Positions 1-5,001 of a stretch of 5,001 nucleotides of DNA are shown piece after piece. This DNA is from an uncultured Archangium sp. GTDB lineage: Bacteria; Myxococcota; Myxococcia; Myxococcales; Myxococcaceae. Under the pieces are notes generated by a model. The model saw only the letters and a program-made list of their open reading frames with translations, was not told the origin of the DNA and searched no databases. Position 1 is the first letter of the stretch; every line of letters begins with the position of its first letter. The stretch is taken from assembly GCA_946479335.1 (NCBI GenBank), contig CAMLFP010000404.1, forward strand, positions 1 to 5,001, in the 5' to 3' direction. A program made the translations under genes and the position numbers.

Positions 1-117
1 AAGCGGCGCGGCACGTACCAAACGGCCCCCAAAAGACAACGGGAAAGCGGATCACTCCGGAGCTTGTATCAGCCCTGCTTCTGGCGTTGCTTCGCCCCCT
101 CAGACCGAGGGGGTCCC
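1..117. other. Leader region with no supported gene
   Basis: No gene can be supported here. It is less GC-rich in its first 60 bases than the rest of the window. All three forward frames happen to be free of stop codons, but none has the start, ribosome binding site or family features of a gene. I looked for a sigma-70 type promoter and for a sigma-54 GG-N10-GC pair and found no convincing match. A promoter for the operon may lie here unseen or further upstream. The last 23 bases before the first gene hold a hairpin, described separately. Confidence 0.5.
95..113 (+). promoter_or_regulatory. Hairpin holding the ribosome binding site of the first pilin gene
   Basis: Bases 95-101 (CCCCCTC) and 107-113 (GAGGGGG) are perfect reverse complements separated by a five-base loop (AGACC). 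This gives a 7-bp stem with six G-C pairs, ending four bases before the ATG at 118. The only Shine-Dalgarno-like sequence for that ATG is GAGG at 107-110, about seven bases upstream and inside the 3' arm. When folded, the stem would hide the ribosome binding site, so translational control of the first gene is plausible. No T-run follows, so it does not look like a terminator. The pairing is seen directly; the regulatory role is inferred. Confidence 0.5.
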
Positions 118-516
118 ATGCGGCGCGGGTTTACGTTGATGGAGATGGCGGCGGTGTTGACGGTGATGGGGCTCATCGTCGCGGTGTCGGTGCCGGCCTA
201 CGACCAGCTCGTGAAGCGCGCGCACACCGAAGAGGCGCGCGGGTTCCTCGAGGCCATCGTCGACGCGGAGCTGCGGCACTTCCGCGACACCGGCCACTAC
301 CTCGTCTGTGAGGGCGCCCCGCCGGGCGAGGCCGGGTGTTGGCAGACGCTGGGGCTCCATGCAGAGGGCCCGCTGCGCTACCGGTACGCGGTGCGCGTGA
401 ATGACGCGGGCTTCGTGGCCAGCGCGCGCGGAGACCTCGACCAGGACGGCGTCGAGAGCCTGTTCGAGCTCGATGGTCGCACGCGCGTGTGGACCGTCAC
501 CGGAGCGCTGGAGTGA
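118..516 (+). CDS. Type IV pilin-like / major pseudopilin (GspG or PilA class)
   Basis: This encodes a 132-residue filament subunit of the type IV pilin superfamily. A four-residue leader (MRRG) is followed by FTLMEM, the prepilin peptidase site, with cleavage expected after Gly4. Glu9 becomes the conserved Glu5 of the mature protein. Residues 5-26 form the hydrophobic helix that anchors the subunit in the inner membrane and packs the filament core. Cys64 and Cys74 could form a disulfide. Near the C-terminus, GDLDQDG (Asp106, Asp108, Asp110) resembles a calcium-binding loop, reminiscent of the calcium site in GspG. The length is close to the roughly 140 residues usual for GspG. ATG 118 is chosen because it gives the standard short leader, shared with two later genes. 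The stop overlaps the start of the next gene. Whether it is the major or a minor subunit cannot be settled; its first place in the operon and its size favour major. Confidence 0.87.
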   Translation: MRRGFTLMEMAAVLTVMGLIVAVSVPAYDQLVKRAHTEEARGFLEAIVDAELRHFRDTGHYLVCEGAPPGEAGCWQTLGLHAEGPLRYRYAVRVNDAGFVASARGDLDQDGVESLFELDGRTRVWTVTGALE

Positions 517-1307
517 GCGAGGCAGAGCTGTTGGTGGTGCGCCAGCTGGAGGCGCTGCGCACCGCGGGCAAGTCACAGCTCGAGGGCGTGCAGCTGGTGG
601 CCGACGCGCTGCCTGACGGGGCGCTCAAGGCGCGCTGTGTGGAGGCCGTGCGGCAGCTGGCGTCGGGCGCGGTGCAACCCGCGGCGTCGGCGTTCGACCG
701 GCTGCTGCGCTCGGCGAACGCGACCCCGAAGTCGCTCTCGTGTCTCGCCCAGTCGCTCGAGGCCCAGCTCGAGGCCTCGGAGGTGACGAGGTCAGCGGTG
801 CTCTTCCTGCGCTTCGTGGTGCTCGGCCCGTTCCTCGGGCTGGCCCTGCGCGACCTGTCGCACGTGGAGTCGATGTTCCGCGAGACGATGAGCACGCTGC
901 CGGTGCTGACGGAGGCGGTGCTCTTCGTCAGTGACGTCGGCCACTACGTAGGCCCGCCGCTCGCGCTGGTGCTCGTCGTCGCCCTCGGGCGCTTCAAGCC
1001 GAAGTGGGTGCCCGGTGCGCGCCAGCTGGAGGTCTCCGCGCGCGCGTTCGAGTCGGCGGCGCTCGGGGCGCCCGCGTCGTTGGACCCGTCGGCGCAGGCG
1101 CTGTTCGAGCAGCTGAGCCGGTTCAGCCCCCGGGAGCAGGCGCTGGAGCGCGTCGGTGAGGAGTACCGCGCTGAAGCGCGCCGCGCGGCGGTCGTCTCGC
1201 GCGTGCTCGCGCCGATGGTCGGGCTGGTGGTGAACCTGCTCATCGTCGGCACGGTGTTGATCGCGCTGTACCTGCCCATCTTCAGCATCGCGGGGGCCAT
1301 CAAGTGA
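513..1307 (+). CDS. gspF: Reduced GspF/PilC-type platform protein, copy 1
   Basis: This is a 264-residue inner-membrane protein of the GspF/PilC family, the platform that couples the secretion ATPase to pilin assembly. The best sign is the C-terminus (about 231-262), a hydrophobic helix ending ALYLPIFSIAGAI, very close to the family's LYLPIF ending. The stretch STLPVLTEAVLFVSDV (127-142) also resembles the conserved segment before the second membrane helix. Membrane segments are about 94-112, 143-160 and 231-258. The N-terminal cytoplasmic part (1-93) and the middle one (165-228) are both shorter than the T2SSF domains of a normal family member of about 400 residues. The start is GTG 513, because it gives a GTGA overlap with the upstream stop and has CGGAG at 501-505. 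A start at GTG 489 is possible but less likely. Of the three copies this one keeps the clearest family signature. Confidence 0.8.
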   Translation: MSEAELLVVRQLEALRTAGKSQLEGVQLVADALPDGALKARCVEAVRQLASGAVQPAASAFDRLLRSANATPKSLSCLAQSLEAQLEASEVTRSAVLFLRFVVLGPFLGLALRDLSHVESMFRETMSTLPVLTEAVLFVSDVGHYVGPPLALVLVVALGRFKPKWVPGARQLEVSARAFESAALGAPASLDPSAQALFEQLSRFSPREQALERVGEEYRAEARRAAVVSRVLAPMVGLVVNLLIVGTVLIALYLPIFSIAGAIK

Positions 1308-2056
1308 CGCCGCTCCGTCGCGCGCAGGTGGTGTGCATCGAGTCGCTGGCGGCCGGCGTGCCCGCGAATGTTCCGGAGTTCAGCGAGGTCTCACGGCAGC
1401 TGCGCCTCGGCGCGCTCGACAAGGCCCTGGCCGCGCTGAGCCTCCCGGGCGACTTCGCGGCCGTGGTCGCGCGCTGGCCGCTCGCCGCGTCGGCCGCCTG
1501 GCGTCGCGTCGACGCGTTGCCTGCGCAGCTGCCGCTGGCGATGTCACTCACGCAGACCGCCGCGTACGGCGCGTTCATCTTCGGCTTCGAGCGAGTCGTC
1601 TGGTCGCTGCTGGAGCTCAAGGTCTTCAAGGCGATGCCGTTCGCCGGCGTATGGCTCGACGTCGGCGGGCTGCTGGTCGAGCTCGCCGCGGTGCTCTTCA
1701 TCGCGCTCGGCATGCTCGGCGTCGGCCAGTTGTGGGGCTGGCGGTGGGTCTCGCCGTGGCGAAGGCACCTCGACCGGGCGCGCGCTTTCGCCCTGCTGGC
1801 GGCGCTGCGCGAGACGAACGCTCCCGACGATGTGCGCGCCGCGTGCGCTGCGCTGTTGCCGGTCGCGTCGCCCGCGCCGCGCGCCGCCTCGTTGGACCAG
1901 CTCGTCGCCGAACACGCCGCCCGCGCCGCGAGCTCGATGGAGCGCGCCTCCGCGCTGCTGCGCACGGCGATGTACGTGATGCTGCTGGTCGGGGCGCTGG
2001 GCATCTCGCTGGCGCTCTATGGCTCGCTCCCATTCTTGTCGCAGGTGACGCCGTGA
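1304..2056 (+). CDS. Reduced, divergent GspF-like membrane protein, copy 2
   Basis: This is a 250-residue protein with the same layout as its neighbours on both sides. A short cytoplasmic N-terminal part (1-74) precedes a hydrophobic segment at about 76-100, a second at about 117-146 and a third at about 220-243. A cytoplasmic stretch rich in Ala and Arg (150-218) lies between the second and third. The ending SLALYGSLPFLSQ (235-247) recalls the LYLPIF ending of GspF. Motif-level similarity elsewhere is weak, so the family call rests on architecture, size and position between two better GspF-like proteins. The GTG start overlaps the preceding stop as GTGA, with only a poor G-rich ribosome binding site (1292-1296), which suggests translational coupling. 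A structural partner of the platform with a lost or changed ATPase contact is possible. It could also be an unrelated three-helix membrane protein. Confidence 0.62.
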   Translation: MTPLRRAQVVCIESLAAGVPANVPEFSEVSRQLRLGALDKALAALSLPGDFAAVVARWPLAASAAWRRVDALPAQLPLAMSLTQTAAYGAFIFGFERVVWSLLELKVFKAMPFAGVWLDVGGLLVELAAVLFIALGMLGVGQLWGWRWVSPWRRHLDRARAFALLAALRETNAPDDVRAACAALLPVASPAPRAASLDQLVAEHAARAASSMERASALLRTAMYVMLLVGALGISLALYGSLPFLSQVTP

Positions 2057-2796
2057 GCCCCGACCCGCGCGCCGTCACGCTCGTGCGCCTCGCGTCGCCG
2101 GCTGATGCCCCGGCCGTGCTGGAGAAGGCCGACGCCTCCTCGCGCTACGTCGCCGCGTGGGAGCGACAGGTGCGCGCGGTCGCCGCCTGGCCGCTGATGC
2201 TCTCGGTGGCGATCTCGCTCGCGGCGTCGGTCCTGGTGGGCGTCGCGGCCCCGGCGCTGCAGGCCACCGTGCTGGCCCGCGAGCCGGTCAGCCTCGCGCC
2301 GCTGTGGGCCTCGCTGGTGCTTGCCTTCGTCGGCTTCGCGCTCATCTCCGGCGCGTCGTTGGGGTGGATTCCGCTCTCGGCGCTGGGCGCCTTCCGCGAG
2401 GTGCGTGACGCCTGTTTCACGTTGCTGCTCGCCGATGCCGTGGAGGGCGGGGTGCCGTTGCCGGTCGCGCTGCGGGTCTGCGGCGAAGTGTGTGGCGGCG
2501 ACTCCAGGCCGGCGGGCGCTGCGCTGGCGCGCGCGTTGGAGAGCGGCGTGGCGATGCCCCCCGCGGTGCGCGTGCCCGGAGAACTGGAGGCCCGCATGCT
2601 CTTCGTCGCGGCGCGTACCGGCACGTTGACCGTGGCGGCGCAGACGTTGCGGTCACTCGGGCGCGCGCGACTGGAACGCACCGCCCCTCGCTTGATGGCC
2701 CGCGCGCGGTTGCTGGCGCTCGGTCTCGCCGCGGTCTGCCTGCTGACGTGTGCGGTCACATTCTACCAGATGTACCTGCACGCCCTCGTCGGTTGA
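2053..2796 (+). CDS. Reduced GspF-like platform protein, copy 3
   Basis: This is a 247-residue membrane protein that looks like a GspF/PilC protein without its first cytoplasmic domain. Only about 44 residues precede the first membrane segment (46-68), which begins with a WPLML stretch like the YP-x-x-L seen in the family and ends near APAL. A second segment spans about 84-107. The cytoplasmic part (112-213) is of near-normal T2SSF size. It reads like that domain, with LLLADAVEGGVPLPVAL (124-140), then LARALESGVAMPPAV (158-172) and FVAARTGTLTVAAQTL (184-199), which lines up with the family's GE-x-SG-x-L region although Gly-Glu is replaced by Ala-Arg. A last hydrophobic helix at 216-240 ends the protein without an LYLPIF signature. 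GTG 2053 overlaps the previous stop as GTGA and has AGGTGA at 2043-2048. A longer in-frame start at 1333 is rejected, because that part lies inside copy 2. Confidence 0.72.
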   Translation: MSPDPRAVTLVRLASPADAPAVLEKADASSRYVAAWERQVRAVAAWPLMLSVAISLAASVLVGVAAPALQATVLAREPVSLAPLWASLVLAFVGFALISGASLGWIPLSALGAFREVRDACFTLLLADAVEGGVPLPVALRVCGEVCGGDSRPAGAALARALESGVAMPPAVRVPGELEARMLFVAARTGTLTVAAQTLRSLGRARLERTAPRLMARARLLALGLAAVCLLTCAVTFYQMYLHALVG

Positions 2797-2797
2797 T

Positions 2798-2801
2798 GGA
2801 G
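2798..2801 (+). promoter_or_regulatory. Ribosome binding site deciding the ATPase start
   Basis: GGAG lies five bases before ATG 2807, in the 10-base gap after the preceding stop (2794-2796). This is the only gene of the cluster that does not overlap its upstream neighbour, and its own Shine-Dalgarno sequence selects ATG 2807 over the in-frame start at 2750 and the ATG at 2819. Confidence 0.6.
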
Positions 2802-2806
2802 CAACG

Positions 2807-3910
2807 ATGACGAACACGATGGATGGTCTGGTGCTGAAGTCGGGGTGGTTCGGCCGCGAGTTCATCCCCTTCGATGAGATGGCGGCGCTCGAGCAGGCCG
2901 CGGTTCGCTTGAAGTCGGGTGCGCGTCACGCGGTCTCGGAGGCGCAGCGCGGGCTGGTGTCGCGGGCCCTCTCGCCGCCGCAGGTGGCCGGGGACCTGGA
3001 GGCAGACGGGGCCGCGCTGCGCACGTACTTGAGTGCTGCGTTCTCTCCGGAGCGCGCGGTGCGCGCGCTGCTCGAGGCGGCGACGAAGGCCAGCGCGTCT
3101 GACGTGCACCTTGAATCATCGGAGCACGGCGTGGTGGTGCAGGTGCGGCTGCAGGGCGAGCTTCGCGCATGGTTCGAGGTGCCCGGCACCGCCAGCGCGC
3201 GCTTGTTCGCGGCGCTCAAACATCTCTCGGGGTGCCTGCCGTATCGCAGTGACGTCTTTCAAGAAGGCCGGCTGCCGCGCGAAGGGGTCGCTGCCGATGT
3301 GCGCACCTCGTTCGTGCCCACGGCGATGGGCGAGCGCGCGGCGCTGCGGTTGTTCGGCGCGCTGCGCACGCTCGACGCGCTCGGTCTCGATGAGGCCTCG
3401 CTGGCGTCGCTGAAGGCGCTGCTGCAACGGCAGAGCGGGCTGGTGCTGGTGGCGGGCAGCACCGGCGCGGGGAAGACGACGACGTTGTACGCGGCGCTCG
3501 CGCACCTCGCGGCGTCGCGCGCCGGCGCGCACCTGAGCCTCGAAGACCCGGTCGAGCAGCGGCTCCGCGTCGCCGGCATTCCCGTCTCGCAGGTCGAGCT
3601 GTGCCCAGAGCGCGGCGTCACCGGTGAGTCGGCGCTGGTGGCGGCGCTGCGGCAAGACATCGACGTGCTGGCCGTGGGCGAAGTGCGGACCTCCGCGGAG
3701 GCCGCGCTGGCGTTGAAGGCCGCGCACACCGGGCGGCTGGTGCTCGCCGGTCTGCACGCGAGCTCGACGCACGAGGCGGTGCAGCGGCTGCTCGACCTCG
3801 GCGTCGACGCGACGGTGCTCGAGAAGACGCTGGTCGGCGTGTTGCACCAACGGCTGGTGAGGCACGGCACTGGGCGCGTCGCGCGCGCCACCGTCGAGGT
3901 GCGGCCATGA
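2807..3910 (+). CDS. gspE: Short GspE/PilB-type secretion ATPase
   Basis: This encodes a 367-residue cytoplasmic ATPase of the GspE/PilB/PilT family, which hydrolyses ATP to drive pilin assembly through the GspF platform. Family features run in order. ASDVHLE (97-103) matches the aSDiHiE motif. The Walker A is GSTGAGKTT (217-225), with Lys223. The Asp box is SLEDPVE (244-250). The Walker B region is LRQDIDVLAVGEV (281-293), with Glu292 retained. The His box runs from TGR (308-310) to GLH, with His317. The protein ends soon after HQRLVRH (347-353), where GspE and PilB usually carry a CxxC zinc-binding segment, so the tetracysteine motif is absent. The N-terminal domain of typical proteins of 500-570 residues is also missing. 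Deviations from consensus are Ile in place of Pro in the D-P-D motif, GEVRT instead of GEIRD, and Arg310 for the first His of the His box. The retraction motif of PilT (AIRNLIRE) was not found. Confidence 0.9.
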   Translation: MTNTMDGLVLKSGWFGREFIPFDEMAALEQAAVRLKSGARHAVSEAQRGLVSRALSPPQVAGDLEADGAALRTYLSAAFSPERAVRALLEAATKASASDVHLESSEHGVVVQVRLQGELRAWFEVPGTASARLFAALKHLSGCLPYRSDVFQEGRLPREGVAADVRTSFVPTAMGERAALRLFGALRTLDALGLDEASLASLKALLQRQSGLVLVAGSTGAGKTTTLYAALAHLAASRAGAHLSLEDPVEQRLRVAGIPVSQVELCPERGVTGESALVAALRQDIDVLAVGEVRTSAEAALALKAAHTGRLVLAGLHASSTHEAVQRLLDLGVDATVLEKTLVGVLHQRLVRHGTGRVARATVEVRP

Positions 3911-4245
3911 GGCGCGGCTTCACGCTGGTGGAGCTGATGATCTCCGTCGCCATCCTGGGGATCATCGTGGTGGGCGCGGGCTCCCTCTCGGCGCTCACCG
4001 AGGCACAGGGAGCGCGCGAGCTGCAGCGCGAGCGCGCGCAGACGCTGCTGGAATACGTGGCGTCACGCGCGGCGACGCGCCAACCGCTCGACCCGCGGTT
4101 GTACGACCAGCTCGCGGAGTCGCTCCCCGGCGCGGAGGTGACGACGCGCGTGTCGGGAGACAGCGTGTGGCTCGAAGTGCACTGGCACTCCGAAGGGCGC
4201 CCCGAGCAGCTCGCGCTCACGGTCTTGCGGGGAGGTCGGCGATGA
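3907..4245 (+). CDS. Minor pseudopilin, GspI/PilV-like
   Basis: This is a 112-residue type IV pilin-like protein. MRRG followed by FTLVEL is a textbook prepilin peptidase site, with Glu9 becoming Glu5 of the mature protein. Residues 5-30 are the N-terminal hydrophobic helix. A charged helix follows (36-50, with AQTLLEYVASRA at 44-55), then a small C-terminal domain of mainly beta character. There the stretch VWLEVHWHSEG (87-97) followed by LALTVL recalls the ending of GspI and PilV proteins (about 120 residues). ATG 3907 overlaps the ATPase stop as ATGA, with GAGGTG at 3896-3901. Position directly before a GspJ-like and a GspK-like gene supports GspI, whose complex with J and K forms the pseudopilus tip in classical systems. 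The exact subtype is an inference; pilin superfamily membership is not in doubt. Confidence 0.83.
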   Translation: MRRGFTLVELMISVAILGIIVVGAGSLSALTEAQGARELQRERAQTLLEYVASRAATRQPLDPRLYDQLAESLPGAEVTTRVSGDSVWLEVHWHSEGRPEQLALTVLRGGRR

Positions 4246-4610
4246 GGCGTGGCTTCACGGCAGTGGAGCTCGCGGTGGTGTTGAGCATCTCGGCGGTGCT
4301 CACGCCGCTCGTGTACCAGACGCACCGGCGCTTCGAGCAGTCTGGGGAACTCGCGCGCTTCCACCTCGACAGCGCGCTGATGTTGCGTGACCTCCGCGAG
4401 GAGGCGCGCGCTGATGCTCGGTGTGATGCGCGCTACGAGCTGCGCGAGTCAGCGTTGTGGCGGAGCGGCTGCGGCGTCGAGCGCGTGGTGGCCACGCGAG
4501 TGCGCACCTTCGAGCAGCGCCACGAGGCGTTGGTGGTCACGCGTTTCTACGTGTTCTCTCCCGACGAAAAACGCTTCGACACGCTCGTGGTTCCCAGGGA
4601 GGCGCGATGA
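4242..4610 (+). CDS. Minor pseudopilin, GspJ/GspH-like
   Basis: This is a 122-residue pilin-superfamily protein. The leader MRRG is followed by FTAVELAVVLSISAVL, so cleavage after Gly4 gives a mature Glu5 (Glu9 here) and a hydrophobic helix to about residue 25. The segment LDSALMLRDLREEARAD (42-58) resembles the helix after the membrane part in GspJ, PilW and GspH proteins. The rest is a small domain with beta-like stretches at 80-105. Cys61 and Cys77 could form a disulfide once exported. It is shorter than usual GspJ (about 190 residues), so GspH or FimT-like is an alternative. The start ATG 4242 overlaps the previous stop as ATGA and has GGAGGT at 4231-4236, one of the best ribosome binding sites in the window, which rules out the in-frame start at 4167. 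Confidence 0.8.
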   Translation: MRRGFTAVELAVVLSISAVLTPLVYQTHRRFEQSGELARFHLDSALMLRDLREEARADARCDARYELRESALWRSGCGVERVVATRVRTFEQRHEALVVTRFYVFSPDEKRFDTLVVPREAR

Positions 4611-4918
4611 GCCGCCGCGGGCACGTGCTGTATCTGGTGATGATGGTGCTGGCCGCGTCAGTCGCGCTCGGCGTGGCGTTCGCGTCTCGCCACACGCTGG
4701 TGCTGAATGGCCATCGCGACGACGCCGTGCGCACGCAGGCGCTCTGGTTGGTGCGCAGCGGTTGCGCGCTCACGCAGATTCCGCGCGTGGTGAAGACTCC
4801 CGCGGGGGACGCAGTGCTCTCGCGCGAAGGCCCGCGGCTGCAGGTGCGCCTCGCCGGGAGCTTCGCGACCGCCGACTGCTCGACGCGAGAAGAACGCTTC
4901 TTACCTGCGCCGCGCTAA
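4607..4918 (+). CDS. Very short GspK/PilX-like minor pseudopilin
   Basis: This is a 103-residue protein. MSRRG is followed by a hydrophobic helix (about 8-26) with no Glu at mature position 5. The segment TQALWLVRSGCALTQ (43-57) matches the pattern in GspK and PilX, where an Ala-Arg-Ser-Gly stretch follows the membrane helix. Absence of Glu5 is a known trait of GspK, and its place after the I- and J-like genes agrees with that. GspK proteins are usually about 300 residues with a large alpha-helical domain, so this one lacks nearly the whole tip domain. The sequence ends with a clear TAA and no sign of a frameshift. Cys53 and Cys91 could form a disulfide. ATG 4607 overlaps the preceding stop as ATGA, with GGGAGG at 4597-4602. 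Processing after Gly5, with His next instead of Phe, is uncertain. Confidence 0.65.
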   Translation: MSRRGHVLYLVMMVLAASVALGVAFASRHTLVLNGHRDDAVRTQALWLVRSGCALTQIPRVVKTPAGDAVLSREGPRLQVRLAGSFATADCSTREERFLPAPR

Positions 4919-4947
4919 CGCTTTGCCGACCAGCGCGGTCTTCTTGT
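4909..4947 (+). terminator. Candidate hairpin terminator or attenuator after the pilin cluster
   Basis: CCGCGCT (4910-4916) and AGCGCGG (4932-4938) are exact reverse complements; a G-T wobble (4909/4939) could add an eighth pair. The loop is 15 bases. A T-rich stretch, TCTTCTTGT (4939-4947), follows at once. The stem covers the stop codon of the GspK-like gene. The long loop and the C and G interruptions in the T tract make it a weak intrinsic terminator at best; partial termination between this gene and the next is possible. Confidence 0.3.
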
Positions 4948-4958
4948 ACGAGGTGATC

Positions 4959-5001
4959 ATGAAAAAGCTGCTGCCGAAGATCCTGCTGGGAGTCGTGGTG
5001 G
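4959..5001 (+). CDS. Start of an unidentified gene with hydrophobic N-terminus (partial)
   Basis: Only the first 14 codons are present, reading MKKLLPKILLGVVV. Two lysines followed by a Leu/Val-rich stretch are typical of a signal peptide or an N-terminal membrane anchor, so the product is probably exported or anchored in the inner membrane. GAGGTG at 4950-4955 precedes ATG 4959 with suitable spacing. It lies 40 bases after the GspK-like stop, the first real gap since the leader, so it may belong to the operon or start a new unit. AsmA-like proteins and GspN-type proteins have similar beginnings, but nothing here allows a choice between these and many other exported proteins. Confidence 0.6.
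   Translation, partial: MKKLLPKILLGVVV

Follow-up and report, generated by a model that had tools for sequence, protein, structure and literature searches.

Three shortened GspF/PilC-type platform genes in tandem suggest a heteromeric platform in an Archangium type IV filament cassette

The platform of a pilus machine is normally a single membrane protein that drives pilus assembly, and platforms of the GspF/PilC type are about 400 residues long. We analyzed a 5,001-nucleotide stretch of an uncultured Archangium sp. (GenBank assembly GCA_946479335.1, contig CAMLFP010000404.1, positions 1 to 5,001 of the forward strand; this whole stretch is called the window), where three consecutive short genes of this type, F1, F2 and F3, lie beside a single gene, E, for an assembly ATPase. 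PulF has been shown to be a trimer by cross-links between cysteines; Tyr168 and Glu370 narrow its channel, and together with the ATPase it has been modelled at 6:3 (PMC10790770). A trimer has also been modelled for ComGB, the platform of the Com pilus of monoderms (PMC10191384). A hetero-oligomeric platform has been proposed for the Tad pilus and modelled with three CpaG–CpaH pairs (PMC12019362). TadB and TadC (CpaG and CpaH) carry one T2SSF domain each, which has been explained by gene fission (PMC6668835), and in the archaeal Epd pilus both EpdJ and EpdK are described as essential (PMC4371748).

The locus shares with the GspF/PilC proteins of type II secretion systems and type IVa pili the order Cyto1-TM1-TM2-Cyto2-TM3 in the models of F1 and F2 (Cyto, cytoplasmic domain; TM, transmembrane segment), profile similarity in all three F proteins, a PilC C-terminus in F1 and a partner ATPase of the GspE/PilB type. 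Unlike them, it has three genes in place of one, encoding proteins of 244–299 instead of about 400 residues that lack the N-terminal domain and have one or the other Cyto domain reduced, and TM3 of the F1 and F2 rows is without Glu-Pro. The Com pilus (ComGA, ComGB and ComGC-GG) is similarly pared down to an ATPase, a platform and pilins and does without a secretin and alignment proteins (PMC10191384), but it has one platform gene, and carriers of the present cassette encode a secretin family member elsewhere in eight of nine genomes. The Tad and Epd pili likewise have more than one platform gene per system, but two rather than three. The original prediction knew of no described system with three platforms, and among the papers listed by searches of the open literature there were two-platform systems and none with three (subscription papers and preprints lay outside their scope); the accessible part of a survey from 2018 on type IVa pili in myxobacteria makes no mention of one (PMC6060248).

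The three genes, whose coordinates (bases 513–2796) and lengths had been given correctly in the original prediction, are as follows.

513..1307, + strand: F1, mini GspF/PilC protein of 264 residues; Cyto1 kept, Cyto2 shortened, PilC-type C-terminus
1304..2056, + strand: F2, mini GspF/PilC protein of 250 residues, the most divergent; TM1 region recognizable, Cyto2 shortened
2053..2796, + strand: F3, mini GspF/PilC protein of 247 residues; full Cyto2, with little left of Cyto1 in this lineage

Each start falls within a 4-bp GTGA overlap with the preceding gene. Overlaps of 4 bp occur at six of the seven junctions in the window and at 46 of 49 over seven complete cassettes, the window included.

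Because Pfam alone would leave doubt about platform ancestry, ortholog profiles were built from alignments of 10 rows for F1 (A4), 8 for F2 (A5) and 9 for F3 (A6), and compared with a reference of eight full-length platform proteins from genomes G001–G004 (A7), all of which match the NCBIfam PilC and GspF models. All three copies matched canonical PilC/GspF well above controls, as the original prediction of platform similarity required: hhalign scores were 73.8 (F1), 48.6 (F2) and 69.3 (F3), against 22.7, 21.7 and 14.6 for the best of 20 column shuffles each, and 9.3–24.8 for the other controls (the profiles reversed, a profile of presumed TadB/C, and single sequences of four membrane proteins from unrelated families). 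F1 aligned over columns 10–276 of 277 (probability 96, E 1.5e-9), F3 over nearly its whole length (probability 96, E 6.4e-9) and F2 over 60 columns around TM1 (probability 85, E 6.5e-6). Among solved structures, the top match of all three profiles was PilC 3jc8 (E 4.8e-6, 0.05 and 1.2e-8 for F1, F2 and F3), which we take to be the Myxococcus protein; the F3 profile also found EpsF 2vmb (E 2.3e-4). The T2SSF search of individual copies (PF00482), to which the original prediction had looked for support, gave a mixed result. Window F1 (E 0.002, 18.6 bits) and window F3 (21.7 bits) matched below the Pfam cut-off of 25.2 and F2 did not match, while the F3 of cassette L004 exceeded the cut-off. At E 0.1 the domain was found in 7 of 10 F1 rows, all 9 F3 rows and none of the 8 F2 rows, the L004 F2 matching at E 0.17. 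Taken by their profiles, F1, F2 and F3 are supported as GspF/PilC relatives.

A Tad relationship was considered separately. The profiles showed no similarity to nine presumed TadB/C proteins of the same hosts (hhalign 23.9, 18.5 and 19.2, which is control level), these being picked by size and a single T2SSF domain, with no TadB/C-specific model behind the assignment. Fission of a GspF and descent from Tad were both rejected; no F profile rose above control level in this comparison. In the four genomes with T2SSF genes listed there are also platform proteins of full length with two domains, and frames of some 300 residues with a single domain, the presumed TadB/C.

The three copies have been shortened in different ways. 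The PilC-like ending claimed for F1 is confirmed: the protein ends YLPIFSIAGAIK, and its last 12 residues are identical to those of a canonical PilC (L044 of genome G001) that passes the NCBIfam myxobacterial PilC model. An AlphaFold2 model of F1 (predicted local distance difference test score, pLDDT, 84) contains both halves with a short Cyto2, and VIA-align placed GspF/PilC Cyto1 structures in all of the five best positions among solved structures, identifying the Cyto1 fold; Foldseek gave no match at E 0.001, with 3jc8 PilC in row 49. For F3, the second cytoplasmic domain is indeed the best preserved of the three, matching T2SSF profile positions 1–123 of 125 (E 2e-4). The loss of its first domain holds for the window, where about 47 residues precede the first membrane segment, but is not general among orthologs: those in L002, L004 and L067 have 294–299 residues, and the T2SSF match in L004 F3 (28.3 bits) covers residues 5–111, corresponding to Cyto1.

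F2 had been described as the most eroded copy. It is the most divergent, and neither Pfam nor NCBIfam gave anything useful for window F2, but the erosion lies mainly in the second cytoplasmic half. Its AlphaFold model (pLDDT 82) has five short helices ahead of the first long helix and holds both halves, with a short Cyto2. Fold searches with this model did not retrieve GspF (nothing by Foldseek at E 0.001; long-helix proteins by VIA-align), a result that neither supports nor excludes the fold. Besides full-length orthologs, the F2 profile gave weak partial matches in 66 further genomes of a 195-genome set and 42 of a 377-genome set. In the first set the matched frames were 400–462 residues long except for two (278 and 308), with F2 positions within 66–188 involved; in the second they were 367–1076 residues, mostly 400–475. 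Two of these frames were checked (G003 C214 and G002 C268), and both also carry two T2SSF domains. Across the family, hydropathy gave three membrane segments in many F rows, two in window F1 and F2 and one in L066 F2, and the F1 and F2 models both show a GspF-like helix order with one cytoplasmic bundle short in each.

The genome sets comprise 195 genomes of one phylum and 377 of another, the latter drawn from a larger group, with no overlap by handle (572 in total); the best 5 to 20 first-look candidates were scored per genome. An ortholog of E was found in 3 of 195 and 6 of 377 genomes, or 9 of 572, at 56–64% identity, whereas in a search of 99 relatives at E 1e-40 no further match exceeded 42%. 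Full-length F2 occurs in the same nine genomes and in none of the remainder. The conserved three-gene order put forward in the original prediction was observed in the window and in all nine genomes, three of the cassettes being split at contig ends. The order pil1-F1-F2-F3-E is intact in L001, L002, L004, L065, L066 and L067; in G003, G293 and G356, one contig closes with pil1, F1 and F2 (with part of F3 in two of them) and another opens with F3, or what is left of it, and E; these ends presumably adjoin. The named carriers, an Archangium sp., Archangiaceae, a delta proteobacterium and a proteobacterium, are all metagenome-assembled genomes. In the six other complete cassettes, the F proteins are 17–30% identical to those of the window. 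Protein database searches, with about 8,000 candidates scored in each, returned 5, 3 and 3 homologs. The cassette is rare but conserved.

Our interpretation builds on the profile homology, on genes that overlap tightly and keep their order, on their occurrence together with a single type of ATPase, and on unequal erosion. Three adjacent, co-inherited and unequally eroded paralogs beside one ATPase fit a hetero-oligomer, and as published work favours a platform of three identical subunits beneath an ATPase hexamer, an F1:F2:F3 assembly, perhaps 1:1:1, is the most likely form. On balance, F1, F2 and F3 are probably diverged, shortened paralogs that replace the usual platform and act jointly, most simply with one of each on one E hexamer; we infer that they would belong to one complex in a 1:1:1 ratio. 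This suggests that three different proteins here make up a part of the motor for which one protein in three copies usually suffices. E would drive extraction of the pilin pil1 through the asymmetric platform, whose six ATPase-facing domains would be unequal; pil2, pil3 and K would start the filament, and a prepilin peptidase, and possibly a secretin, would be supplied from elsewhere in the genome. Two points weigh against this picture: the F1, F2 and F3 profiles are only weakly alike, and the cells also have full-length PilC, which could be involved.

A stricter form of the hetero-oligomer is conceivable, although we hold it only tentatively: an obligate 1:1:1 heterotrimer whose subunits keep a set order beneath the ATPase hexamer. 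Only some of the six domains that face the ATPase would be intact, and the constriction would be asymmetric, with non-acidic residues in F1 and an invariant Arg in F2 taking the place of the PulF Glu ring. TM1 Tyr-Pro and TM3 Glu-Pro are not conserved together in every subunit. F3 keeps the Tyr/Trp-Pro of TM1 in all nine rows, and no F1 (10) or F2 (8) row has Glu-Pro in TM3, the register being weak for F2 and F3. Opposite PulF E370, F1 has Pro, Ser or Gly in the 6 of 10 rows with a clear ungapped C-terminal register. For F2, the alignment puts Arg there in 8 of 8 rows, and an ungapped register test with low margins does so in 5 of 8. For F3, L003 and L066 have Glu and the window Ala (ungapped) or Arg (hhalign register), most rows not being reliably placed. 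A residue change at the PulF Glu site is suggestive only. If the stricter form were true, the motor of this type IV filament would have threefold asymmetry built into it, and the literature searched gave no example of such a motor. How the ATPase hexamer rotates the platform trimer so that pilins are drawn out of the membrane is a standing question. Mutants of a homotrimer alter all three positions together; with a separate gene for each platform position, as seems to be the case here, each position, ATPase contact and channel side could be altered alone.

Among the alternatives to a joint platform, it is unlikely, though worth weighing, that one or two of the F proteins form the true platform and F2 has been reused as an inner-membrane accessory in place of GspL/GspM or PilMNO. 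No secretin, GspL/GspM or PilMNO(P) gene was recognized by Pfam among the eight window proteins, nor any secretin or alignment gene among ten selected flanking proteins of five related loci, and the divergence of F2 and the absence of T2SSF from its rows at E 0.1 would suit such a role. The TM1 region of F2 is nevertheless still like that of GspF, as is the order of helices in its model, and its profile finds platform-sized frames in many genomes. There is a slimmer chance that the three proteins build separate homo-oligomeric platforms for different tasks (e.g. extension, retraction or different pilins), as their weak mutual similarity would allow. This sits poorly with a single cassette of overlapping genes that has only one ATPase, and with the uneven loss of domains: window F3 is almost without Cyto1, and Cyto2 is short in the models of F1 and F2, so that the published trimer model, with its six full Cyto domains, could not be built from any one copy. 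A decaying system, with duplicated platform genes drifting without function, could account for the low F identities and lost domains but is very improbable, given that all three frames are open in seven complete cassettes with unchanged order and overlaps kept, and that E remains well conserved with its P-loop. Least credible is that a single GspF gene was divided, the explanation put forward for TadB/TadC, and the original idea of GspF features spread over three proteins is not supported in detail. No F reaches the length of GspF, and Cyto1 and Cyto2 are better kept in different genes, but F1 and F3 align to nearly the whole core, the F1 and F2 models hold both halves and L004 F3 has Cyto1, which looks like multiplication plus unequal erosion, each F looking like a shortened whole GspF and not a third of one.

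The window holds eight genes on the + strand, in the order pil1, F1, F2, F3, E, pil2, pil3 and K, forming a compact operon for a type IV pilus-like filament. The five genes besides the F trio are listed below.

118..516, + strand: pil1, prepilin with a GFTLME cleavage motif and a GspG/PilA-like N-terminus
2807..3910, + strand: E, GspE/PilB-type assembly ATPase of 367 residues
3907..4245, + strand: pil2, minor prepilin; N_methyl E 3.1e-8, over the cut-off; position conserved
4242..4610, + strand: pil3, minor prepilin; TIGR02532 E 3e-4, over the cut-off; position conserved
4607..4918, + strand: K, small membrane protein with a faint likeness to the GspK N-terminus; position conserved

The set typical of the type IV filament superfamily is present, with pilin, assembly ATPase and platform in the cassette and a prepilin peptidase (PF01478) in all nine genomes with an E ortholog. 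All three pil proteins have prepilin motifs. pil1, the probable main pilin of the filament, scores over the cut-off of TIGR02532 and below that of the GspG model TIGR01710 (E 1.9e-7); its orthologs are 42–50% identical and stand first in the cassette in six loci. A GDLDxDG loop near the C-terminus, common to pil1 and several orthologs, is perhaps a calcium site, as we presume by comparison with GspG. K (103 residues, against 307 model positions) matches the GspK model at E 0.071, far below the cut-off, and its ortholog similarity is weakest in L004 (E 0.19). It has no GFxxxE, and carries a QALWLVRS stretch, with close counterparts in orthologs, that to us recalls GspK/PilX N-termini.

E contains T2SSE (Pfam, E 1.6e-55) with the P-loop at residue 217. 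Its best NCBIfam model is TIGR02533 GspE (203 bits, under the equivalog cut-off), GspE and PilB being the top models, and it is not of the TadA/CpaF type; the ComGA model gave 170 bits against a cut-off of 300. No match to E was found on plasmids at 1e-50. The N-terminal 80 or so residues (window 2807–3073) form a short conserved part with a FIPFDE-like pattern, which presumably sits at the place of N1 in other assembly ATPases; no Pfam family matched it in three orthologs, and a PH-like domain was rejected for want of Pfam support. Window E has no CxxC, a motif that occurs once or more close to the C-terminus (window 3800–3910) in each of the seven other orthologs examined; a metal-binding cluster seems to have been lost here.

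The content of the ten flanking proteins varies between loci. In L065 alone, a histidine kinase and a sigma-54-dependent response regulator (4034–7046) lie just upstream of pil1, placed, as we take it, like PilS/PilR of other pilus systems. Another kind of multiplied platform was seen among distant ATPase loci (L005–L022), where 11 of 18 have two GspF/PilC-type frames downstream of one GspE-type ATPase. All 11 (L005, L006, L008–L013, L015, L020 and L021) are from Planctomycetota, Phycisphaerae or Phycisphaerales. They resemble the Archangium cassette in a platform gene multiplied near one GspE-type ATPase but have two copies, mostly full length at about 400 residues; T2SSF was confirmed for six proteins from five of these loci.
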